Positions 50,407 to 53,447 of a stretch of DNA of 64,000 bases are shown one piece after another. The DNA comes from Prochlorococcaceae cyanobacterium jk18x22bins.40 (GTDB lineage Bacteria > Cyanobacteriota > Cyanobacteriia > PCC-6307 > Cyanobiaceae), in the NCBI GenBank assembly GCA_022826155.1, contig JAJDVL010000047.1, positions 1-64,000 on the forward strand. Direction: 5' to 3'. Below the pieces are notes generated by a model that saw only the letters and a list, made by a program, of their open reading frames with translations, searched no databases and was not told the origin of the DNA. Position numbers and translations under genes: made by a program. Each line of letters opens with the position of its first letter. Positions within the stretch are counted from its first letter, which is position 1.

Positions 50407-50445
50407 GGGGAAGCTAACCAGGGGCCGTCCAGGGAACGTCCGGGG
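50407..50445. repeat. Left arm of imperfect inverted repeat
   Basis: A 39-bp GC-rich sequence starting GGGGAAGCTAACCAGGGGCC. Its reverse complement is found at 53408-53447 with about four mismatches and one single-base gap. The two arms enclose about 3 kb containing both AT-rich islands. A partial direct repeat of AACCAGGGG lies at its outer edge (50402). Confidence 0.85.
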
Positions 50446-50458
50446 ATGCCGATGGCGA

Positions 50459-51043
50459 TATTGTAAATATAGTATTTCAGATATGAATAATAATGAATTT
50501 TATGATTATTTAGATAATGGTAAAGATATTTATAGATATGATCCGGCTGAAGAAGGGATGGGGTCCAATAGTATAGCATCAATAGCCGGTTTTATTACAG
50601 CTATGGCAAGATCTGTTTTATGGTGGGCTATGAGATACTTAAGAGAAAATGATCATGGAATTTATATGGTAGATACTGATTCTTTAATTACTGATGGAGA
50701 ATTACCATCTAATCTTGTTGGTAAAGATATAGGGAATTGGAATTTAGAGGAAGTTTCTGATCCTAAGTTATGCGAATTTAGGGCTCCTAAACATTATTCT
50801 TTTGCGGATATTATGAAAATAAAAGGTATTAGGGAAGCTAAAAGAGGGCAAAGTATTTATAGACAAGCACAGTTTAGTAAATGGTCAACTAACTTAGGTA
50901 GTAAAAGTAAAAAAATGAGAGATAGACTTGAAAGAGGAGCATTAGTTAAAGATATTGATAAAATAGTAACAGGAGAGAATAAAAAAAGAATTGTTATTGG
51001 TGAAAATATGTTTAATTTACCGTTGGAGTTATATGAGAAATAA
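50459..51043 (+). pseudogene. 3' fragment of a family B (protein-primed type) DNA polymerase
   Basis: Strongly AT-rich, unlike everything around it. The frame is open from the junction with GC-rich repeat DNA at about 50457; the first ATG is at 50483. SNSIASIAGFITAMARSVLW and IYMVDTDSLITDG correspond to the region before motif C and the DTDS metal-binding motif C of family B polymerases. FRAPKHYSFADIMKIKGI matches the thumb-side LAPKxY...KGI of the DNA_pol_B_2 group (phi29, linear plasmids, adenovirus-like). The N-terminal exonuclease and motifs A and B are absent, so it is a truncated remnant of a virus or plasmid gene. It cannot be an active polymerase alone. Confidence 0.78.
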
Positions 51044-51276: not shown

Positions 51277-53161
51277 TTATCTAAATCTATTATCTTTCTC
51301 TGTTACAAATACCCCATCAACAGATAATGATTCTGTCTTATCCCTATACCATACTTCACCTGCCACAAAATTGGGAAAAACATTATAACTATTACTATTA
51401 GTTAAAAAAGAACCTTCTACTTGTAATTCACTTCCATTTATAGTATCATCCGGACTAATATATCTAAAAAATCTGCCATTACTTCTAATATCTGTATCTC
51501 TAATAGGAATTACTGTATCCCTAAGTAATATACCTGGAAGATTAGATGTATCCGAAACATTCTCCACATATATCGTCATATGTGACGGTTCCAGGATATG
51601 TTCATCGTGATTAACAGCAAATCTTGCCAAAACTCTAATATCAGAGGTTATTTCTCCTTTATCATTATTATGATTATAATACCATTTCGCCCCATTTTCA
51701 TTTTTATATTCAACTTGAAGATTAAAAAGATGTGGACATACGCTATGAGCGCAATCAACTGCGTGATAACTATTATATGATTCATAAGGATCAATATAAG
51801 AATAATCTCTTTGTCTGTAAATAGAACGTGAAGTATTTACAAGAGGACCTCTTTCTAACCAGTAATCAAATCCATTTATTGAACCACCGTAACCTGTCGT
51901 ACCTGGCACATCCATTGGCGGTGTTACCCCTGGACTCGGCGCTGTGGTTGGCGGCGTTATCCCTGGACCTGGTTCTGTGATTGGCGTCGTTTCCCTTGGA
52001 CCTGGTTGTAACCCGATTTTAGGATTATTTTCTTGGGGCGGTTTAAAGTGAATAGGAAGTAATAACGTTGATATTTCACTATTTGAAATAAACCATGGCG
52101 CTATTATGTTAAAGTTTCCTGAGGAAGCGGCTAATGTTCCAGCTATATTTGTAGGGTGAGTATAATTAGCGTCGTAACTATAAAATTGTCCTCCCCATTT
52201 TCCATTATATCTTCTACTGTTTATATATCCATTTAGATCCCCATCAAAGAAACCATTATGGGTAGAACCTATAGATAGCCTATCAAGATTTAACTTACCG
52301 GGTAAATTAACCGTATCAAAAGTAAGTGCATAATTAGGGTTATTAGACGTTCCTATACTTTCATAGGATACTATTTGTTTATCCTTAAAGTTATTTATTT
52401 CTCCTGAAACATAACCTAGTGAATTAGTGTCTTCAAAATCGGCTTTTAGGATCATATTACCCTCTAAAGTATTTCCTATGGCAAAACCGTCATTATACCT
52501 TTTATGAATATCAATAAGTCTTTTAGCTTCTGTTTCAGTTGTTGCTTCATATAATGAAAATCCTTCGCAGGAAGTGCCGCATAATGACCGATAATAATTG
52601 GAATTAGTATTATATTTAGTAAATTTTACATTATCCTCGTAAGTTGCTGTTCCTGTTAATTGTGAAATAGAGCCTTTATATTCGGTACTATCTACAAATA
52701 CTCCAACATCTCCTACAAACAGATTATCAATAGATAATGAACCATTAGGCTTTCTTTCAGACCATGTTCCGTGTAGCATATAGCTACCATCAGGATATTT
52801 ATATAAATTAGACACTAAATTAGTTGTAGATGTTTCTAAATAATTGTTTGTTCCTTCTGTTACTTTACCAAAGTCATTACCATTTTTAATTACATTGTAA
52901 CTACCGTCTTCATTAGAAACAACTTGTATTTTATCACTAGTTAATATACCATTAGTATTAGATGAATGGGTTACACTGCCAGGAACTGGGCGCGCTTTTG
53001 AAATTTTAGCGGGGGCGGGTAATCTTGGGTCAATAGGATCCCGATTCCCCGAAAAAGATTCATTACTTCCCCCCCCCCCCCCCGCCTCCGCAAGAAGCCA
53101 AGACGAAGAGAAGCGGAAAATAAATCCGAGGATTTTTAACATTAGGAAGGAGCTGATTCAT
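51277..53161 (-). CDS. TbpB-like two-lobed surface lipoprotein, phase-variable by a G tract (frame currently off)
   Basis: AT-rich gene. From the ATG at 53161 the start reads MNQLLPNVKNPRIYFPLLFV followed by LASC, a lipoprotein signal with lipobox. It then enters a 15-base G tract and meets TAA two codons later. With 14 or 17 G it joins the main 600-residue frame (SNESFSGNRDP...). At 15 G that frame is instead entered from an ATG at 53142 without a lipobox. The body has beta-barrel motifs of TbpB/Slam-dependent lipoproteins (YNGKWGGQFYSYD, NIAGTLAASSGNF; later VAGEVWYRDK, VDGVFVTEK). A Pro-rich linker (PGPGITPPTTAPSPG) divides the two lobes. A surface receptor or adhesin is likely; the ligand is unknown. 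Probably horizontally acquired. Confidence 0.7.
53069..53083. repeat. 15-bp homopolymer (C on plus, G on coding strand)
   Basis: A run of exactly 15 C on the plus strand, which is the codon tract for the glycines right after the lipobox Cys in the lipoprotein gene. Tracts this long are hypermutable by slipped-strand mispairing, and each one-base change shifts the frame. Assembly error in the count is possible. Confidence 0.95.
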
Positions 53162-53214: not shown

Positions 53215-53447
53215 GTGATTTTGGCGGGCGGCCCTATCTGGTGGTCATGGCAGGCGATCCCGCCAGGCGTCCTATCAGGTGAACCGTCAGGATGCCCGCG
53301 CCCGCCCGTTCCCCGCCAGGCCGTCCACGTGGTTTCCCTTCCGGATGCCCTGGCGGGCTGCCCACGTGGTTCCCCTGGCGGGTTCCCTAATACGGTTCCC
53401 TGGACGCCCCCTGGACGATCTCTGGACGGCCCCTGATTGGCTTCCCC
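53215..53447. repeat. Right GC-rich repeat block with inverted-repeat arm
   Basis: Contains another GGCGTCCTATCAGG (53267), several CCACGTGG-type palindromes (near 53318 and 53363) and, at 53408-53447, the right arm complementary to 50407-50445. On the plus strand the arm ends GATTGGCTTCCCC directly before the conserved part of the NYN gene. No transposase is encoded. Confidence 0.75.

Follow-up and report, generated by a model that had tools for sequence, protein, structure and literature searches.

A lipoprotein leader out of phase with a long reading frame

The window, that is, the whole stretch of 64,000 nucleotides analysed here, carries on its minus strand a lipoprotein signal peptide, a homopolymeric G-tract and a long open reading frame, in that order (Table 1). 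The 15 C residues on the plus strand are exactly 15 G on the minus strand, and from the ATG at 53160 the codons run MNQLLPNVKNPRIYFPLLFVLASC, GGA GGC, five GGG, AAG and TAA. The motif LASC, which follows a hydrophobic stretch, conforms to the bacterial lipobox [LVI][ASTVI][GAS]C. A sequence-only reading of this DNA had described a lipoprotein signal ending in LASC followed by a Gly run of 15 G, a TAA two codons past the tract, and a main frame of about 600 residues joined at 14 or 17 G. All of this was borne out by the sequence, the frames and a simulation of tract length, which shows in addition that 8 and 11 G join the frames. At each of these four lengths the leader is fused to the main frame (about 625–628 aa); at 9, 12, 15 and 18 G translation stops after about 32 aa, and at 10, 13 and 16 G after about 62 aa. 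Because the contigs are draft assemblies, the count of 15 could be out by one base.

Table 1. Features of the locus (positions in the window).
Feature	Position	Strand	Remark
Lipoprotein signal peptide MNQLLPNVKNPRIYFPLLFVLASC, lipobox LASC	53090–53160	minus	start ATG 53160; Cys codon TGC 53092–53090
15-G homopolymer	53069–53083	minus	encodes the Gly linker behind the lipobox Cys; putative site of slippage
TAA closing the leader frame at n = 15	53063–53065	minus	one Lys codon past the tract
Main frame, lipoprotein body	51277–53068	minus	596 codons plus stop; joins the leader at n = 8, 11, 14, 17
Alternative ATG 53142, in the main frame at n = 15	53068–53142	minus	MLKILGFIFRFSSSWLLAEA-GGGGG, without lipobox
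N-terminal half of body	52063–52995	minus	homologues in two congeneric species, 33–34% identical; related by profile to TbpB-like lipoproteins adjacent to Slam
Pro/Gly-rich linker	51915–52013	minus	three degenerate 33-nt repeats
C-terminal half of body	51280–51914	minus	without Pfam match; unlike the C-terminal region of homologues
Fragment related to phage-type DNA polymerase	50483–51043	plus	30% GC; phrog_1907, E 4.8e-11; YMVDTDS motif
Inverted repeat, 39 nt, 87%	50407–50445 and 53409–53447		flanks low-GC island with polymerase fragment and lipoprotein gene

No other run in the window reaches 10 nt, the runner-up being 9. Of 100 shuffles of the window that preserved dinucleotides, two gave a 15-G run (0.02 expected). 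The tract is thus unusual by itself; its position behind a lipobox is the stronger argument. Beyond the tract lie 596 codons without a stop, compared with a longest open frame of 148 codons in 500 shuffles of the same DNA, and the main frame is therefore not a product of chance. Its GC content by codon position (43/42/20%) is as expected for a coding frame. The locus shows one mark of a contingency gene of the reading-frame type, a long homopolymer in the start of the coding sequence with an intact frame past it.

The sequence-only reading had placed the gene in the OFF frame. This holds for the leader frame, which stops at n = 15, but not without qualification for the main frame, which at this length has an upstream ATG of its own (53142). 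Because of that ATG, OFF strictly means that no lipoprotein is made, and the term is used here in this sense.

The lipoprotein body and its surroundings

The gene has a GC content of 35% on a contig of 62% GC, and is present in single copy in the genome (2.0 Mb, 51 contigs). Among 60 genomes searched, relatives were confined to three further species of the genus, at about 25–35% identity (27–35% over the main matches); one of these loci belongs to 'Cyanobacteria bacterium MAG CAR3_bin_5'. The homologues in these three species carry the same kind of leader, and the N-terminal half of the relatives is AT-rich too.

Searches with the window protein gave no hits in Pfam and NCBIfam, including TbpB_B_D (PF01298), nothing relevant in PDB profile searches and nothing in a plasmid search. 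Among its relatives, TbpB_B_D matches at L199 (E 1.5e-5), L093 (E 3e-5) and L097 (E 0.0013) all fall short of the cut-off, the first two only just. Profile–profile alignment (hhalign) of the window N-lobe family to TbpB-like lipoproteins of the genus gave probabilities of 85–94%. AlphaFold models, of the whole protein alone and of the N-terminal half together with one relative, reached a pLDDT of 33. Its length, its AT-richness, its relatives within the genus and its profile relationship to TbpB-like, Slam-adjacent lipoproteins mark the main frame as a real gene.

The polymerase fragment is convergent with the lipoprotein gene and found no match in phage or viral collections. The 39-nt inverted repeat may mark a mobile insertion.

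The same architecture recurs in the genus

A scan of ten genomes of the genus for LxxC-GGGG found many lipoproteins, mostly with mixed Gly codons and several with G-tracts. Every G-tract of at least 10 nt in these genomes (141 distinct tracts) was then checked for a preceding lipobox. At least six lie directly behind one, against about 0.09 predicted by random placement. One of the six is ON and five are OFF, four of them ahead of a long frame and the fifth at the end of a contig (Table 2, which also includes an 8-G relative). A further lipobox followed by 15 G (L198) was left out of the ON/OFF count, its contig ending too soon. Three other candidates (L046, L165 and L173) were rejected as not being lipoproteins, and so was G211/L200.

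Table 2. G-tracts directly behind a lipobox, with the phase of each gene as assembled.
Gene	Tract length (G)	Phase	Remark
Window gene	15	OFF	
L031	12	OFF, ON at 13	subtilase body, PF00082 E 1.7e-32
L178	10	OFF, ON at 9	
L199	11	OFF, ON at 12	TbpB_B_D match just short of cut-off; ends in GAFGAKR
L087	10	OFF	contig end
L032	11	ON	
L096	8	ON	8-G relative

Both phases thus occur among paralogues and relatives across the genus (OFF at 15, 12, 11 and 10 G; ON at 11 and 8 G), the two phases coming from different genes. Searched as a pattern of fixed geometry with at least 8 G, the arrangement occurs in five of ten genomes of the genus, compared with none or one of 290 other Cyanobiaceae (Fisher p about 1e-8 to 1e-7). 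Among those 290 we found no convincing case, the eight hits being non-lipoproteins or 5-G runs.

The lipoproteins appear to form a genus-wide set, comprising TbpB-like proteins, TbpB-like proteins with autotransporter-like tails and subtilisin-like proteins, several of which carry a tract at the same place. The C-terminus of the subtilase-type L031 reads as autotransporter-like from its sequence. On the same kind of reading, L101, L103, L090 and L178 join a TbpB-like or similar passenger to a C-terminal autotransporter-like region shared with the subtilase lipoproteins of the genus, an unusual combination of domains. Two intact subtilase lipoproteins of the window's own genome (L099 and L100; C46 and C22) lack long tracts and are tract-free members of the set.

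A second kind of tract, of 9–16 C, lies shortly upstream of many lipoprotein genes of the genus; in L092, L101, L102, L089, L097, L094 and L142 it is found 47–110 nt before the lipobox Cys. Three of these C-tracts directly follow an ATG or GTG in a conserved context (TTGTAACGTG or TTCGTTACATG), and such starts are in the lipoprotein frame only at n+1 or n-2. L092 has two tracts, C14 upstream and G12 after the lipobox. The upstream C-tract may serve in regulation or act as another switch.

G-tracts in general and mismatch repair

Long G-tracts are not confined to lipoprotein genes. The genome contains eight further tracts of at least 10 G, most of them not behind lipoproteins. The genus is rich in G-tracts (up to 36 per genome), and some other Cyanobiaceae are equally rich. 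Long tracts as such are for both reasons not proof of selection, and since other Cyanobiaceae have as many, our argument rests on the position of tracts and not on their number.

Loss of MutS as the cause of long tracts was rejected, MutS being found in all ten genomes of the genus. Given its presence, mismatch repair could damp slippage; in other phase-variable bacteria slippage happens despite mismatch repair.

Some tracts belong to a repeat element, GCCAGC(GCTGC)-[G12-16]-(A)TAGTA..AGTTACTGGC. Three copies in the window's own genome (L002, L005 and L006) have tracts of 16, 12 and 12 G, and one in a sister species (L061, genome G003) has 14. These unequal lengths fit length instability of G-tracts in the lineage. 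Elsewhere in the same genome (L003:5006-5020, L004:4917-4931 and L009:4236-4245) and in genome G004 (L059), G-tracts lie beside the near-palindromic GTAAAGAATTGTTAC or close variants of it, in either orientation.

A possible Slam export route in the lineage

Of the ten genomes of the genus, seven, the window's own among them, have a match above cut-off to SlipAM, the Slam barrel domain (PF04575). The 290 other Cyanobiaceae searched gave no such match, and a sample of 385 other genomes of the phylum gave one weak hit. The own copy (L023) has a SlipAM barrel at E 1.3e-20 and a weak TPR_Slam N-terminus at E 0.0011, below the cut-off of that profile. L023 thus supplies the Slam expected in the genome of a Slam-dependent lipoprotein; it lies on a different contig from the window gene. 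In two sister species (genomes G005 and G009) Slam adjoins a lipoprotein with LAACGGGG. The neighbour in G009 has a near-threshold TbpB_B_D match and that in G005 is 69% identical to it. Surface display of the window lipoprotein would then depend on Slam. A separate in-frame run of 10 G lies within the coding sequence of a Slam barrel (L088:3901-3910, G005).

A candidate phase-variable gene and the alternatives

The best explanation of the locus, and one we consider probable, is phase variation of a contingency gene whose product is a TbpB-like lipoprotein exposed on the surface. By slipped-strand mispairing, the G-tract that encodes the Gly linker behind the lipidated Cys would gain or lose at least one base. 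At 14 or 17 G (also at 8 and 11) the signal peptide would be fused to the 596-codon body, and the lipoprotein made, lipidated and probably exported through the outer membrane by the Slam homologue that the genome encodes on another contig. With the 15 G of the assembly, a ribosome beginning at the lipoprotein ATG would reach a stop after about 32 codons. The sequence and frames, their recurrence over genes and species, and the presence of Slam are observed; from them we infer slippage within populations, lipidation, a surface location, dependence on Slam and a role toward host, grazers or phages. The contingency-type surface lipoprotein proposed by the sequence-only reading thus gains support from the recurrence, in other genes of the genus, of lipobox, G-tract and out-of-phase frame at both ON and OFF lengths, from the near-absence of this architecture in 290 other Cyanobiaceae and from Slam in the lineage.

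Were the true tract 14 (or 17), the gene would always be ON, and the tract a neutral by-product of Gly-rich coding. The genome is a draft, a run of 15 G is as hard to sequence as homopolymers get, and such tracts mark the ends of some contigs in the genus (L050/L102, L087, L198). Nevertheless, we judge this reading unlikely. Even at 14, a G-tract of 14–15 nt in the start of a coding sequence is intrinsically unstable, and other genes are out of frame with shorter tracts too (10, 11 and 12), for which short reads are more reliable. Furthermore, tract-free lipoproteins of the genus spell the same Gly linker with mixed GGT, GGC and GGA codons, so that a G-run is not needed for it.

If the ATG at 53142 were used at n = 15, the same body would be made with a non-lipidated signal peptide, and the tract would switch between lipid-anchored and soluble forms. 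This ATG is in frame and precedes the end of the leader region by 75 nt, and its peptide is hydrophobic and ends in A-E-A (LLAEA-GGGG, AXA-like). However, two other OFF genes (L031 and L199) have no start in the main frame, and L178 has just a GTG at most 10 codons from the tract end. In the absence of a comparable start in these genes we treat the ATG as a chance occurrence, which probably comes of a hydrophobic leader being read in a different frame, and regard a switch of localisation as very unlikely.

A frameshift that is simply a one-way loss, in a decaying pseudogene, might be suspected from the position of the gene in an AT-rich island beside a polymerase fragment, and from the homologue in genome G006, which is ON at the tract yet broken further downstream by frameshifts or stops. 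The window gene shows no other lesion across its 596 codons, its codon-position GC is that of a coding frame, and the other OFF genes are equally intact past the tract, all of which makes decay highly improbable. We give just as little credence to programmed slippage, by which a fixed 15-G template would still yield some full-length protein: polymerase and ribosome are known in general to slip on long homopolymers, but tract length is not conserved across genes and species (8 to 15) and ON examples exist, which length variation fits better.

Significance and comparison with known systems

The phase-variable arrangement had been called unexpected in a cyanobacterium, which is half right. The nearest named relative is a metagenome-assembled genome, MAG CAR3_bin_5, whose name suggests a sponge host, and this picocyanobacterium may therefore well be host-associated; a sponge as host of that MAG is our reading of its name. 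The switching mechanism itself is already known. What is new is the host lineage, the sharing of one tract position by lipoprotein bodies that are unrelated, and the presence of Slam alongside them. We consider it evenly balanced whether a host-associated cyanobacterial lineage acquired Slam, TbpB-like and subtilase-type lipoproteins as a package and operates a phasome in which one switchable leader, a lipobox with a G-tract, is common to unrelated bodies. If so, the lineage would provide the first example of Neisseria-like surface switching in a photosynthetic symbiont, and would extend both poly-G phase variation and Slam export to the Cyanobacteria. A cyanobacterium with symbiont-like relatives would be randomising its surface as animal pathogens and commensals do, possibly in evasion of host phagocytes, grazers or phages, and the tolerance of such symbionts, their recognition and predation on them would become open to direct test.

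Most known cases of tract-based switching of surface proteins come from bacteria that live with animals, Neisseria among them. The open-access literature yielded nothing relevant on phase variation in cyanobacteria or sponge symbionts, which is no proof of absence. NalP, a subtilisin-like autotransporter lipoprotein, resembles L031, the subtilase-type gene of a sister species. In Neisseria meningitidis, NalP and MspA are phase-variable autotransporters with poly-C tracts of 6–15 in the coding sequence, and nalP is expressed only at 7, 10 or 13 C (PMC3723659). The window gene resembles nalP in having a homopolymer within the coding sequence of a surface protein, in the same range of lengths, with one length in three ON. 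It differs in that the body is TbpB-like and not a subtilase, the tract is a Gly linker directly behind the lipobox Cys, and it belongs to a cyanobacterium; isolates have been shown to differ in the tract length of NalP, whereas the window gene is known from one assembled length.

Slam with TbpB-like partners has been described throughout the Proteobacteria (PMC5449769), and cyanobacteria are mentioned neither there nor in PMC8406197. The window protein has the lipobox and linker of the Slam-dependent TbpB/HpuA/fHbp group (PMC5449769) and may share the eight-stranded beta-barrel fold of TbpB-like proteins. The genome holds a Slam homologue with TPR and SlipAM, and in sister species Slam stands beside TbpB-like lipoproteins; here, in contrast, Slam is on a separate contig and the protein has no Pfam hit. 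The ON/OFF switching of an open reading frame by poly-G recalls the poly-G/C contingency genes of Campylobacter and Helicobacter. The gene families are different, and the genus described here stands out by the common position of its tracts behind lipoboxes.
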